In this document: positions 18,088 through 23,626 of the stretch, piece by piece
Numbering within the stretch: position 1 is the stretch's first letter
Layout: each line of letters begins with the position of its first letter
Assembly (NCBI RefSeq): GCF_020442045.1
Contig: NZ_JAGRLA010000104.1
Span: 1-64,000 of the forward strand
Reading direction: 5' to 3'
Origin: Bauldia sp.
Lineage (GTDB): Bacteria; Pseudomonadota; Alphaproteobacteria; Rhizobiales; Kaistiaceae
Length of the DNA: 64,000 nucleotides
Notes under the pieces: model-generated
The model's database searches: none
What the model saw: the letters and a program-made list of their open reading frames with translations, nothing else
What the model was told of the DNA's origin: nothing
Translations under genes and position numbers: made by a program

Positions 18088-19209
18088 CTAGTCGCGCTTG
18101 AAGCGCTTGTTGTGCTTGCGCCGGCCATAGCGCCAGCGATCGTGCAGCCACAGCCACTGGCCGGGCGTCTCGCGGATCCAGTCCTCGACCATGCCATGGA
18201 CCATGACATTGGTGGCTTCCGCATCGACGCGGCCGCTCGCGTCCCGCGGCAAATCGAGCCGCGGTGTCATGGTCAGCCGGAAACGCCCGTCGGGAAGCCG
18301 GACCGAATAGGAGCCGTGGACCGGGCAATCGAACAGCCGCGCCATGACCCCGACGACCGGATTGCTCAGCGACTTCCGCCCGAAAAAGCGGATGACCTGC
18401 CCCTCGGCGATGCGCTGGTCCACCAGGATGCCAAGGTGATGGCCCTTAGCCAGAGCGCGCGCGATCCGCCGCGCGATGCCTTCGCCCGGAGCGATCAGGT
18501 CGCTGGCGAAGATGCTGCGCCGCTTCGCCAGTTCCTCGGCGATATAGGGGTTGGCCGGCGGCCGATACGGCGCCGTCACCGGCAGGCCGAGCCTGTCGCC
18601 GATCGCCGCGACGAGCTCCCAGTTGCCGATATGGGCGCCGAAAATGACGCCGGCCCTGCCGCTGTCGCGCAGGGCGTGGATGTGCTCGATGCCGACGACC
18701 TCGACCGGGCCATCCTCCATATGCTCCGGGTCGAAGGCGTCGATCATGTCCTTGAGGAAGGCATATTCGATCGACTGGCGGGCAAGATTGTCCCACACCT
18801 CGGCGAGGATCCCGGCCCGCTCGGCCTCGCTCTTCTCCGGGAAGGCGGCGGCGATGTTGGCGGCGCCGAGCTTGTTTTCCCTGACGAAGCGCCCGCCGAA
18901 CCGCGTGACCCTCGCGGCGATGTTCGACGCCCGGACACGGCCGACCGCCTGTGCCCAGTCGAAAAGGAAGCGCATCATCCCGGCTGCGCGGCGCTGCAGG
19001 AAATCCGCCGATTTCGACGTCGGACGGGTTTCCTCCTTCGTCTTGCGCCTGGCTTGCTGACGGGCGGCGCGCCGCGCTTCCTTCTCCGCGAGCCGCGCCC
19101 GGCGCCTCGCCCTTCGCTCGCGACGCGCCCGGCGTTCCTCCCCGGTGAGGGGCGCCTTGTGCTTCGCAGTCGCGGGGTTCCTGTGCTTCCTGTTCGACCC
19201 GTCGCTCAC
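18088..19209 (-). CDS. lpxXL: LpxXL-type lipid A acyltransferase, with a highly basic N-terminal extension
   Basis: LpxXL transfers a very-long-chain hydroxy fatty acid from AcpXL onto lipid A at the inner membrane. The 373-residue product has the LpxL-family active site HIGNWE in VIFGAHIGNWELV, the AEGQVIRFFGRK region and the PGQWLWLHDRWR C-terminal motif. The first 60 residues are extremely rich in Arg, Lys and Glu (RRARRERRARRRARLAEKEA) and precede the hydrophobic anchor RFLFDWAQAVG; such an extension is unusual for the family. The GTG start overlaps the stop of the upstream dehydrogenase gene (GTGA), supporting the long form. Last gene of the VLCFA cluster. Confidence 0.92.
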   Translation of the reverse strand: MSDGSNRKHRNPATAKHKAPLTGEERRARRERRARRRARLAEKEARRAARQQARRKTKEETRPTSKSADFLQRRAAGMMRFLFDWAQAVGRVRASNIAARVTRFGGRFVRENKLGAANIAAAFPEKSEAERAGILAEVWDNLARQSIEYAFLKDMIDAFDPEHMEDGPVEVVGIEHIHALRDSGRAGVIFGAHIGNWELVAAIGDRLGLPVTAPYRPPANPYIAEELAKRRSIFASDLIAPGEGIARRIARALAKGHHLGILVDQRIAEGQVIRFFGRKSLSNPVVGVMARLFDCPVHGSYSVRLPDGRFRLTMTPRLDLPRDASGRVDAEATNVMVHGMVEDWIRETPGQWLWLHDRWRYGRRKHNKRFKRD

Positions 19210-20231
19210 AGCGTCACGATGATCTTGCCGAAGACCTGTCGCGATTCCATGCGGCTGAGGGCGGTGTCGATGCCGTCGAGGTCGATCATCGAATCGACCA
19301 CCGGCCTGACCACACCCGCCGCGATCTTGTCCAGCGTCTCCCTGAGGTTGCGGACCGAACAGCCGAAGCTGCCGATCAGCCGGAGCTGCTGCTGGTAGAG
19401 CTGGAAGAGGTTGATCTCGCAGTTGATTCCGGTGGTCGATCCGCAGGTCACCAGCGTTCCGCCGCGCTTCAGGCAGAACATGCTCTTGGCGAAGGTGTCG
19501 ACGCCGACATGCTCGAAGACGACATCGACGCCGCGCTTGCTGGTCAGCTTGCGGACGACGCTCTCGAACCGGTCCTCGCGATAGTTGATGACGTGGTCGG
19601 CGCCGAGCGCCCTGGCCTTCTCGATCTTGTCGTCGCTGCCGACCGTGGTGATCACCGTCGCGCCGACCGCCTTGGCAAGCTGGATCGCGGCCGTGCCGAT
19701 GCCGCTGCCACCGGCCTGGATGAGGACGGTCTGGCCCTCCTTCAGTCCGGCATTGTCGAACAGCATATGCTGCGGCGTGCCTATGGTGACCGGGGCGCAG
19801 GAAGCGGCAATGACGTCGACGCCCTCGGGCGCGGGAATCGCCAGCCGGGAGGGCAGGTTGACCAGCTCGCGGGCGAGCCCGTCGATATGGAAGCCACGGA
19901 TGCCCCCGACATTCTCGCAGAGATTCTCGCGCCCCTCGCGGCAGGCCTCGCAGGTGCCGCAGGTCTCCGCGCCGAAGATCGCCACGACCTGGCCGGGGGC
20001 GAGCCCTTCGACCCCTTCGCCGATCGCGGCGACGGTACCCGCCGCCTCGACTCCGACGACGATCGGCAGCTTGCGCCTGGCGAAGGCCATGCCGCGCCAG
20101 CCCCAGACGTCGATATGGTTGAGCGCCACCGCACCGATGCGGACCTGGACCTCGCCGGGTCCGGGCGGCGGCGGATCGGGGAGGTCGACGGCCGCGAGCT
20201 GGCGGCTGTCGAGGAGTTGGAGGGCACGCAC
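19206..20231 (-). CDS. Zinc-binding alcohol dehydrogenase/reductase of the VLCFA cluster
   Basis: A medium-chain dehydrogenase/reductase of 341 residues with GRIG-type N-terminal fold, structural zinc cysteines in ETCGTCEACREGRENLC, and the NAD(P) site AGGSGIGTAAIQLAK. Its position between fabF1 and lpxXL matches the conserved adh2XL of rhizobial clusters, where the product is thought to help make the very-long-chain hydroxy acyl chain, perhaps as the reductase step; the exact reaction is not proven. The GTG start is 33 bp after the fabF1 stop. Its stop overlaps the lpxXL start by 4 bp. Confidence 0.9.
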   Translation of the reverse strand: MRALQLLDSRQLAAVDLPDPPPPGPGEVQVRIGAVALNHIDVWGWRGMAFARRKLPIVVGVEAAGTVAAIGEGVEGLAPGQVVAIFGAETCGTCEACREGRENLCENVGGIRGFHIDGLARELVNLPSRLAIPAPEGVDVIAASCAPVTIGTPQHMLFDNAGLKEGQTVLIQAGGSGIGTAAIQLAKAVGATVITTVGSDDKIEKARALGADHVINYREDRFESVVRKLTSKRGVDVVFEHVGVDTFAKSMFCLKRGGTLVTCGSTTGINCEINLFQLYQQQLRLIGSFGCSVRNLRETLDKIAAGVVRPVVDSMIDLDGIDTALSRMESRQVFGKIIVTL

Positions 20232-20264: not shown

Positions 20265-21536
20265 TTATGCGGGCTCGGCCGCGATGATCAGGCAGGCATT
20301 CTGGCCGCCGAAGCCGAAGGAATTCGACAGCACGACCGAGACCTCCTGCTCCCGCGCCGTGTTCGGCACGACATCCAGCGTGATGTCGGGGTCGGGGACC
20401 TTGTAGTTGATGGTCGGCGGGATCACGCCGGCATGCATGGTCTGGATCGAGAAGACCGCCTCGAGTGCGCCCGACGAGGTCAGCGTGTGGCCGACCATCG
20501 ACTTGTTCGAGCTGATCGGCACGCCGCGCAGGCGCTCGCCGAATACCTTGTCAAGCGAGAAGTGCTCCATCTTGTCATTCTCGGGCGTGCCGGTGCCATG
20601 GGCGTTGATGTAGTTGATCTCGTCGGGATGCATGGCGGCATCGTCGAAGGTGGCGCGCAGGGCGCCGATCACCGCCGAGCCATCGGGCTTGGAGCGGGTA
20701 CGGTGGAAGTCGTCATTCTTGTCGGCGGCGCCGCGGATCACCGCGAGGATACGGGCGCCGCGCGCCCTGGCGACGTCGTAGTCCTCCAGCACCAGCGCCG
20801 CCGAGCCCTCGGCGATGACGAAGCCGTCGCGGTTCTTGGAGAAGGGCTTGGCGGCTTCCTCGGGCGGCCCCTTGAAGGAAGACAGCGCCGAAAGCAGCGA
20901 GAAGCGGACGATCTCTTCCGCCGTCACCGAGCAGTCGGTGCCGACGCAAAGCGCCGCCTCGGTCTCGCCGCGGCGGATCGCCTCGACCCCGAGCTGGACC
21001 GCGGTGGCGCCCGAGGCGCAGGCCGTGGTCAGCGAGATCGGCGCGCCGCGCGTGCCGAAACGGTCGGCAAGCTTCTCCGAGACATAGCCATACATCGAAT
21101 GCTCGAATTCCTCGCGGTCGTTGGCGAGGCCGGCCGCCCGGCACATGCGGTCATAGGCATCCTCATCGGCCTCCGGCGCGACCGCCTCGTAGAGGCGGCG
21201 GCGGGCCGGCCAGCCGAGCTCGACCGGCGGAATGGCGGTGAAGAGGGGACCGGGAAAATCCCCCGGCGAGCCGATTCCGGACATGCGGACCGCCTCGTCG
21301 ATGGCAAGCTCGCCGATGGTCAGCTTGAGGTCGCGGAGATCGACATTCGGCAGGTCGACCGTGCCGGCGAAGGTGGTGCGCAGGTGGGTCGTCGGAAAGC
21401 GGGTGATCTCCTTGATGCCGGAGCGGCCGGCGACCAGCGCCTCCCAATTCTCCTCAAGCCCGGTACCGAGCGAGGATACGACGCCCATGCCGGTGACGGC
21501 GACGACGGGGCGGTTACGCTTGTCACGAAGAGCCAT
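20265..21536 (-). CDS. fabF1XL: Beta-ketoacyl-ACP synthase FabF1XL, catalytically intact
   Basis: A condensing enzyme that elongates acyl chains on AcpXL. The 423-residue protein has the full KAS II active site: Cys173 in TTACASGA, His313 in INAHGTGTPEND, and Lys345 with His350 in SSNKSMVGHTLTSSG. It ends in NSFGFGGQNA. A GGAGGT Shine-Dalgarno precedes the ATG (MALRDKRNRPVVAVTG); the frame is open upstream without family similarity. It lies 74 bp behind fabF2XL, which lacks all three catalytic residues, so the two may work as a pair. Confidence 0.95.
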   Translation of the reverse strand: MALRDKRNRPVVAVTGMGVVSSLGTGLEENWEALVAGRSGIKEITRFPTTHLRTTFAGTVDLPNVDLRDLKLTIGELAIDEAVRMSGIGSPGDFPGPLFTAIPPVELGWPARRRLYEAVAPEADEDAYDRMCRAAGLANDREEFEHSMYGYVSEKLADRFGTRGAPISLTTACASGATAVQLGVEAIRRGETEAALCVGTDCSVTAEEIVRFSLLSALSSFKGPPEEAAKPFSKNRDGFVIAEGSAALVLEDYDVARARGARILAVIRGAADKNDDFHRTRSKPDGSAVIGALRATFDDAAMHPDEINYINAHGTGTPENDKMEHFSLDKVFGERLRGVPISSNKSMVGHTLTSSGALEAVFSIQTMHAGVIPPTINYKVPDPDITLDVVPNTAREQEVSVVLSNSFGFGGQNACLIIAAEPA

Positions 21537-21610
21537 CTCAACCTCCGTATGCCTTAAACGCCTTCCGGCTCCGTGCGCGGACACGGATATCCGGATAGTC
21601 AACGCGCCCC

Positions 21611-22819
21611 CTAGTCGATCGCCTCGACCAGCCCCATGCCTTCGCCACGCCAGTTCCCCCAGGAATTGACCGCGATCGCGGTCGGCGTGGTCTTCACCGC
21701 GGTCTCGAAACCGGTTTCGTCGGCCGGACGGTAGAACCCCTTGCGGGAGAGAGCCAGCGCCGCCAGGCCGACCATTGACGGGAAGGTCGCCTCGACGCTG
21801 GTGCCGAGCATGTTCGGCGTCGCCCGTACCGTATCCAGCTCGCCGCGGTCGATCAATCCGGAGAGGAAGTCCTGCTCCTCGATGGTCAGCGGCGAGAGGC
21901 CCGATGCGCTGGTCAGCATGGCGAGCGGACGGTCGCCGGCCTCCTTGCGGATCTCGGCGAATTGCCTGGCGGCGGTCGCGGCCGCCTGTCCCGGCTCGCG
22001 CCGGCTGCGTCCCGACAGCACCGTGCCGAGCCGCGCATAGGGCCTGGCACCGCGCGCCTCGGCATGCTCGCGCGCCTCCAGAACCAGGAAGGCCCCGACG
22101 GATCCGAGGATGATCCCGCCGCCCCGCGCCGGTCGCGCCCAGACCGAGACGGGCTCCTCCGTCCAGGCCCAGCCGGCGCCGGACATGACCAGCAGCACAT
22201 CCTTGCGCTCGGCGATGATCGCGCCGCCGGCAAGGAAGATGTCGCCCTGGTCGGCGCGGATGCGGCGGGCGGCGATCTCGACGGCGCTGACGCTGGCCAG
22301 CTCCTCCCCCATGAAGGTCCGGGACGAGCCGGTCACCTTGTGGACGATGGCGATGTTGCCGGCGACCAGGTTGGGAAGCTGGGCGAGGAAAAGCGTCGGG
22401 CGGAGATCGTTCGACAGCCGCTCGTTGATGAATTCCTCGGGCGATTCCGCCGCGGCGACGCCTTCGAGGATGGTCTGGTCGACCGCGAGGTCGCGTTCGC
22501 CGCCGGCGGCCGCGACCACCATATTGGTATTGGAAAGCAGCTCGAGATTGCCGGCGATGCCCGCGTCATCGAGGGCGAGGCCCGCCGTGTAGGTGCCGAC
22601 CCGCTGCCAGTTCTCCATCTGGCGGCGATCGCCACCCTTCGGGATCTGGAGCGAGAAGTCGAGCGGCACCATCGGATGGACCGGATAGGGCGCGAAGGAG
22701 GTCGTATCGATGACCGGACGCGGATTCTCCGCTTCAGCCATCGCCTGCCAATGCGCGTCGAGCCCCTCGCCGAGGCTCGAGGTCATCCCGATGCCGGTGA
22801 TCCAGACCTCGCGCGTCAT
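21611..22819 (-). CDS. fabF2XL: FabF2XL, ketosynthase homologue without catalytic residues (chain-length-factor-like)
   Basis: A 402-residue ketosynthase-fold protein (MTREVWITGIGMTSSLGEGLD at the start, VNSWGNWRGEG near the end). Compared with the neighbouring FabF1, the nucleophile Cys is replaced by Glu173 (MGEELASVSAVE against TTACASGATAVQ). The HGTGTP histidine block reads SASGLSP and the NKSMVGHT block reads TPNMLGTS. It should therefore be unable to condense by itself. This recalls the KS/chain-length-factor pairs of polyketide synthases. It is required alongside fabF1XL in rhizobial clusters by gene conservation; the heterodimer idea is inference. The ATG lies 46 bp after the fabZ stop. 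Confidence 0.92.
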   Translation of the reverse strand: MTREVWITGIGMTSSLGEGLDAHWQAMAEAENPRPVIDTTSFAPYPVHPMVPLDFSLQIPKGGDRRQMENWQRVGTYTAGLALDDAGIAGNLELLSNTNMVVAAAGGERDLAVDQTILEGVAAAESPEEFINERLSNDLRPTLFLAQLPNLVAGNIAIVHKVTGSSRTFMGEELASVSAVEIAARRIRADQGDIFLAGGAIIAERKDVLLVMSGAGWAWTEEPVSVWARPARGGGIILGSVGAFLVLEAREHAEARGARPYARLGTVLSGRSRREPGQAAATAARQFAEIRKEAGDRPLAMLTSASGLSPLTIEEQDFLSGLIDRGELDTVRATPNMLGTSVEATFPSMVGLAALALSRKGFYRPADETGFETAVKTTPTAIAVNSWGNWRGEGMGLVEAID

Positions 22820-22865: not shown

Positions 22866-23333
22866 TCAAGTCAGCGTCCCCAGCTCGACACCGTGCTGGC
22901 GGGCCCGTTCGCGCACCAGCACCGGCAGCTCCGGACTCGGGAAATCCATGACCATCATGGTCAACTCGGCGTCCGCGATCAGCTTGCCGTCGACCCTGAT
23001 CTCGTTGCGGGTGATGCAGAAACCGGAACCGTCATGGACGAGGTCGCAGACCGATTTCATCAGCATGCCCGGCAGCGCGAAGCTGCGGATCTTCACCTTC
23101 TTGGCTCCGGCGAAGAAGGGAAGCCGGCCAAAATTGTTGAGACCGAGAAGCAGATAGCCGGCGGTGTGGTTCATCATCTCCAGCAGGAGAACCCCCGGCA
23201 TCACCGGATAGCCCGGGAAATGCCCCTCGAAGACCGGGCTTTCCTCGGGAATCGTCGAACTGGCCTCGACATGGCCGTTCTCGAGGTCGAAGACGTCGAC
23301 GGTGTCGATGATGTCGAAATATTCGAGCCGCAT
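22866..23333 (-). CDS. fabZXL: 3-hydroxyacyl-ACP dehydratase of the VLCFA cluster
   Basis: A hot-dog-fold dehydratase of 155 residues that removes water from 3-hydroxyacyl-AcpXL during chain elongation. The active site is EGHFPGYPVMPGVLLLEMM, with catalytic His38 and Glu52 on the family pattern. The C-terminal RNEIRVDGKLIADAELTMMV strand matches the FabZ/FabA-like group. I start at the ATG of MRLEYFDI; the longer open frame upstream runs into acpXL. It starts 11 bp after the acpXL stop. Confidence 0.92.
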   Translation of the reverse strand: MRLEYFDIIDTVDVFDLENGHVEASSTIPEESPVFEGHFPGYPVMPGVLLLEMMNHTAGYLLLGLNNFGRLPFFAGAKKVKIRSFALPGMLMKSVCDLVHDGSGFCITRNEIRVDGKLIADAELTMMVMDFPSPELPVLVRERARQHGVELGTLT

Positions 23334-23344
23334 GGGAGCTTCGG

Positions 23345-23626
23345 TCAGGCGTCCTTCGCAGCGACGAGCTCGTCGATCCGGGCGCAGAGATTCTTGAGGA
23401 CGAAATAGTCTTCCACCGAAGCGCGGCCCTCGTTGACCTCCTCGGTCCACGATTCGAGCGGAATCTTGATGCCGAATTTCTTGTCGAGGGCGAAGACAAT
23501 ATCGAGGAAATCGAGGCTATCGATGCCCAGATCGTCGATGGCGTGCGATTCCGGCGTTATCTGATCCAGTGGAATCTCGCTGGTCTCGGAAATAACCTGC
23601 GAAACCACATCGAATGTCGAGGACAT
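23345..23626 (-). CDS. acpXL: Specialised acyl carrier protein AcpXL
   Basis: AcpXL carries the growing 27-hydroxyoctacosanoate-type chain used for lipid A in rhizobia and relatives. The 93-residue acidic protein has the phosphopantetheine site at Ser37 in [20 protein letters not shown]. The DxxSLD context is typical for ACPs, and its length and C-terminal tail differ from housekeeping AcpP. It is the first gene of the minus-strand acpXL-fabZ-fabF2-fabF1-adh-lpxXL cluster, so the cluster promoter should lie in the roughly 250 bp upstream; I saw no convincing -35/-10 pair there. Confidence 0.94.

Follow-up and report, generated by a model that had tools for sequence, protein, structure and literature searches.

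In type II polyketide synthesis, an intact ketosynthase (KS) forms a heterodimer with a chain-length factor (CLF), a dead partner of the KS fold that has Gln or Glu in place of the catalytic Cys and is encoded by an adjacent gene, as in the actinorhodin system (1tqy) and at the Streptomyces loci L121, L126 and L129. In the PUFA synthase, the KS and the CLF are joined as a didomain in the single polypeptide PfaC (6riw), which also belongs to a long-chain lipid pathway. Heterodimers with a dead partner have been described outside the classic aromatic polyketide synthases as well, among highly reducing or Gram-negative systems; ApeO-ApeC (PMC8358021) and AmcF-AmcG (PMC10698177) are KS-partner pairs of this kind, and Iga11-Iga12 and AntD-AntE are counted with them (PMC8358021, PMC10698177).

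The rhizobial acpXL-lpxXL cluster for very-long-chain fatty acids (VLCFA) contains two KS-family genes, fabF2XL and fabF1XL. Databases and papers give FabF2XL the name beta-ketoacyl-ACP synthase or 3-oxoacyl-ACP synthase II, and published work describes it as a synthase or an elongation protein (PMC11901934, PMC5613085). Two ordinary ketosynthases do not explain the C26-C30 lipid A fatty acids of alphaproteobacteria, while a CLF-like pair would help account for the building of this 26-30-carbon outer-membrane fatty acid. The original prediction for the locus analyzed here was such a KS/CLF pair, in a gene cluster rightly said to be known already. In the open-access literature we found no publication that assigns a chain-length-factor role to FabF2XL; acpXL together with 'chain length factor' gave no match there, and acpXL together with 'ketosynthase' gave one mupirocin paper only.

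Results

The window, a 64,000-nucleotide stretch of Bauldia sp. DNA, carries the genes acpXL-fabZXL-fabF2XL-fabF1XL-adh2XL-lpxXL in this order on the minus strand, on which all features given below lie. The dedicated acyl carrier protein is encoded by acpXL (23345..23626; NF005079, 168.6 bits) and a 3-hydroxyacyl-ACP dehydratase homologue by fabZXL (22866..23333), which matched PF07977 and scored below the FabZ equivalog cut-off. Next come fabF2XL (21611..22819), for a KS homologue of 402 aa that appears to be non-catalytic, and fabF1XL (20265..21536), for a catalytically intact KS of 423 aa that belongs to NF005076 (PRK06501; 651 bits, cut-off 629). The cluster is completed by the zinc-binding dehydrogenase gene adh2XL (19206..20231; PF08240, PF00107) and by lpxXL (18088..19209), which encodes a lipid A VLCFA acyltransferase homologue (NF005120, 317.6 bits). 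FabF2 passed the curated cut-off of NF005084 (PRK06519) with 505 against 320 bits, and its gene adjoins fabF1XL inside the acpXL-lpxXL cluster, as expected for PRK06519. The locus thus resembles the rhizobial cluster in family membership and gene order, and also in the Glu that the Sinorhizobium meliloti orthologue carries at the nucleophile position. Pfam recognized both KS domains in FabF1 and the N-terminal KS domain alone in FabF2, as it did in 39/39 scanned FabF2 relatives. The nearest named relative is Bauldia litoralis, whose FabF2 is 93% identical. The LpxXL of the window has an Arg/Ala-rich N-terminal extension of ~65 residues ahead of the family match, and a comparable extension is seen in B. 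litoralis (L037).

We read the residue columns from one joint alignment of 95 FabF2XL and 92 FabF1XL sequences. In this alignment C173, H313, K345 and H350 of the window FabF1 correspond to E173, S306, P335 and T340 of FabF2. FabF1 therefore retains all four residues (codons at 21018..21020, 20598..20600, 20502..20504 and 20487..20489, respectively), as had been predicted, and its Cys is found in 92/92 sequences. The Cys-His-His triad of FabF/KAS II is absent from FabF2. Its Glu173 (22301..22303) is conserved in 95/95 orthologues, and since the same column holds Cys in every FabF1XL, the exchange of Cys for Glu is not a matter of chance. Pro335 (21815..21817) stands at the position of the catalytic Lys, which is absent in 95/95 orthologues, and Thr340 (21800..21802) at that of the second His. 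These three replacements agree with the original prediction; the first His had been given as replaced by Ala and is in fact replaced by Ser306 (21902..21904), as the AHG and ASG motifs are in register and the Ala precedes Ser306. Most relatives have Thr at this position, and S, T, C or N accounts for all 95. Orthologues with the catalytic Cys/His/His were sought as evidence against the predicted pair, and in the joint alignment 0/95 FabF2XL retained the Cys or the first His. The claim that every catalytic residue has been lost holds for the window and its Bauldia/Kaistia relatives, in which the Cys, both His and the Lys are all missing, and not for the family, in which the second His persists in 79/95 sequences. 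The rhizobial protein differs from that of the window lineage in this second His; the S. meliloti FabF2XL has Glu, Ser, Gly and His at the four positions. In two other KS-family genes of the same genome that were included in the tree (L001, L002), the triad and the Lys are all present.

The two genes are kept side by side, as predicted. In 93/95 FabF2XL loci the next gene downstream, on the same strand, is fabF1XL, with a median gap of 26 bases, and the remaining two (L020, L072) stop at contig edges. Among 289 genomes of the class, FabF1XL was found in 14, all of which also have FabF2XL; the fifteenth FabF2XL in this set sits at a contig edge. The identity matrices of the two families were strongly correlated over 56 non-redundant pairs (r=0.93, Mantel p=0.0005), a correlation that partly reflects shared species history, and the two subtrees were largely concordant. 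Relative to B. litoralis, dN/dS was 0.075 for FabF2 and 0.078 for FabF1, so purifying selection acts on FabF2 as strongly as on FabF1, and FabF2 is not decaying.

Published genetics also ties fabF2XL to VLCFA synthesis. In Agrobacterium fabrum, lipid A contains no VLCFA at all when fabF2XL is disrupted by an insertion, and supplying the gene in trans restores VLCFA in part (PMC11901934). Normal VLCFA synthesis without fabF2, which would have spoken against the original prediction, is contradicted by this phenotype; the insertion lies within the operon and a polar effect is possible. In Bradyrhizobium ORS278, attempts to disrupt either fabF gene were unsuccessful (PMC5613085).

For a structural model of the pair we used B. 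litoralis, whose two proteins are 93-94% identical to those of the window, because the two genes of the window are in different frames. The modeled chain was a read-through FabF2-FabF1 fusion, with stops read through, predicted by AlphaFold2 from 40 paired rows. The model, made for that pair alone, had a pTM of 0.90, and the linker residues 404-442 were disordered (pLDDT ~30); with a disordered linker and this pTM, the predicted placement of the two halves relative to each other appears confident. In a Foldseek search the fusion matched the PfaC KS-CLF didomain (6riw) over both halves and 988 columns with a query TM of 0.70, while single KS chains reached 0.42-0.44. The heterodimer that had been proposed is thus confidently predicted in the arrangement of PfaC KS-CLF, with the caveat that AlphaFold2 may assemble any pair of KS-fold domains in the manner of a KS dimer. 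PfaC differs from the Bauldia pair in being a single polypeptide, in its low identity (14%) and in its product. FabF2 alone was predicted to have a full KS fold (pLDDT 91.7). Its Z scores against FabF, FabB and ishigamide KS chains were level at 45-46. Since FabF2 is equally close to all of these, the fold cannot separate a synthase from a CLF.

Comparison with known partners gave likenesses and differences. In Streptomyces fungicidicus, a gene that carries the annotation ketosynthase chain-length factor (L121) also has Glu at the Cys position; Gln is found there in the Streptomyces CLFs L126 and L129, and Ala in two CLF-like partners from highly reducing clusters. The alignment proposed earlier, with rhizobial fabF2XL and CLFs, therefore showed a Glu shared with S. 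meliloti and one CLF; on the other hand, the catalytic Lys, present in 5/5 CLF and CLF-like sequences compared, is absent from 95/95 FabF2XL. The locus also departs from the type II polyketide systems in the order of genes within the operon, with fabF2XL ahead of fabF1, and in a pathway that is fully reducing and saturated. ApeC consists of only one thiolase-fold domain, unlike FabF2XL, and the Escherichia coli protein (240 aa) was excluded from the trees as too short and too divergent; FabF2XL further differs from ApeC and the partners in the Iga, Ant and Amc pairs in that its own partner acts on AcpXL for lipid A. In the trees FabF2XL formed a long stem branch. The branch uniting it with CLFs had a support of 88/95, or 70/94 after more CLFs were added, and a sister grouping with FabF1XL was not rejected (AU p 0.12 and 0.33). 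These comparisons allow FabF2XL to be described as CLF-like in its probable function but not to be placed within the polyketide CLF clade.

Discussion

FabF2XL is probably an obligate partner of FabF1, with which it would form a heterodimer as the non-catalytic half, much like a CLF. We observed that every relative examined lacks catalytic residues, that the pairing is obligate and that FabF2 is under purifying selection; together with the invariant Glu, the co-occurrence, the correlated divergence and the fused model, these findings point to a catalytically silent partner of FabF1XL that would not itself be a ketosynthase. FabF1XL and FabF2XL would form a KS-fold heterodimer in which Cys173, His313 and His350 of FabF1 carry out every malonyl condensation on AcpXL. 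FabF2 would complete the dimer and may shape an acyl tunnel across the interface that could accommodate chains of ~C26-C30, a CLF-like function within a fully reducing fatty-acid pathway. Of the KS/CLF pair first proposed, the dead partner kept beside an intact KS therefore stands; we infer the setting of chain length by FabF2 and consider it about as probable as its opposite.

The region around the acyl pocket bears on where chain length is decided. In E. coli FabF the gating residue is Ile108 (PMC7138838). The F2-specific invariant motif GGERD (FabF2 residues 106-110, 22490..22504) aligns with the GSGIGG/Ile108 gate stretch of FabF, and R109, D110 and D114, invariant in 95/95 FabF2XL, fall within this stretch. 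FabF1XL has its own conserved loop near the gate, AIPPVELGW in the window (residues 101-109, 21210..21236), in which A101, P104 and W109 are found in 92/92 sequences and E106 in 91/92; its register is uncertain, as the loop is too different for the gate residues of FabF to be mapped onto it with certainty. Since conserved residues specific to each protein occur in the gate region, both partners seem to have diverged around the acyl pocket, as would be expected of a dedicated long-chain enzyme. The FabF1XL loop would equally suit a heterodimer in which FabF2 stabilizes FabF1 or recruits AcpXL, with length coming from the FabF1 pocket or from the selectivity of LpxXL. There is a precedent in the dead partner AmcG, which is insoluble without AmcF and has been proposed to act as a cyclisation factor instead of a chain-length determinant (PMC10698177). 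Nothing stands directly against such a role, although F2-specific invariants also lie in the gate stretch, and we regard it as possible.

About a dozen charged residues, among them R109, D110, D114, R167, E172, E173, R205, R229 and R274, are invariant in 95/95 FabF2XL and absent from FabF1XL. This is more than a passive partner would obviously need, and could indicate a FabF2 homodimer with a new activity at a rebuilt site (GERD, RT.MGEE and invariant Arg residues). We find this doubtful, because FabF2XL is strictly paired with FabF1XL and the heterodimer was predicted with confidence. The same residues (E172, E173, R167, R109, D110, R205, R229 and R274) might instead line the dead site as a charged chamber that takes the omega-1-hydroxylated far end of the chain from FabF1 across the interface and acts as a ruler and hydroxyl sensor for C26-C30; we think this elaboration of the heterodimer unlikely.

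In KSQ domains, Gln replaces the Cys and both His residues are retained, and decarboxylation requires these His residues. An acidic Glu is close to the KSQ Gln, and the original prediction had raised a kinship with these domains on that ground; FabF2 would then be a malonyl-ACP decarboxylase that provides the starter. The Glu is no pointer to KSQ, since the annotated Streptomyces CLF shares it. Moreover, the first His is missing in 95/95 orthologues and the second is also missing in the window, and we rejected decarboxylation as the best reading and hold it to be very improbable. That FabF2 is a decaying paralogue retained through operon linkage, as the lost catalytic residues and the long stem branch might suggest, is scarcely credible in view of a dN/dS equal to that of FabF1, the many invariant F2-specific residues, the need for fabF2XL in VLCFA synthesis (PMC11901934) and the retention of the pair even where acpXL and fabZXL were not found nearby; a pseudogene was rejected by the dN/dS and conservation.

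If FabF2XL is CLF-like, a widespread cluster of rhizobia and their relatives carries a wrong functional annotation, and KS-partner heterodimers reach into the fully reducing biosynthesis of lipid A. Chain-length control would then be testable by the swap of one gene.

The composition of the cluster varies among the loci. FabF2 and FabF1 occur together at L057, L060 and L101, near which acpXL and fabZXL were not found. Hyphomicrobium sp. CSMAG_2141 carries the FabF2-FabF1 pair twice, at L055 alongside acpXL and at L101 without it. We saw adh2XL near 42/93 pairs, a count that includes some loci too short to show it, and it is missing from most Bradyrhizobium-type loci. One FabF2XL cluster (L045), 51% identical, occurs in a metagenome-assembled genome labelled Chromatiaceae (Gammaproteobacteria).
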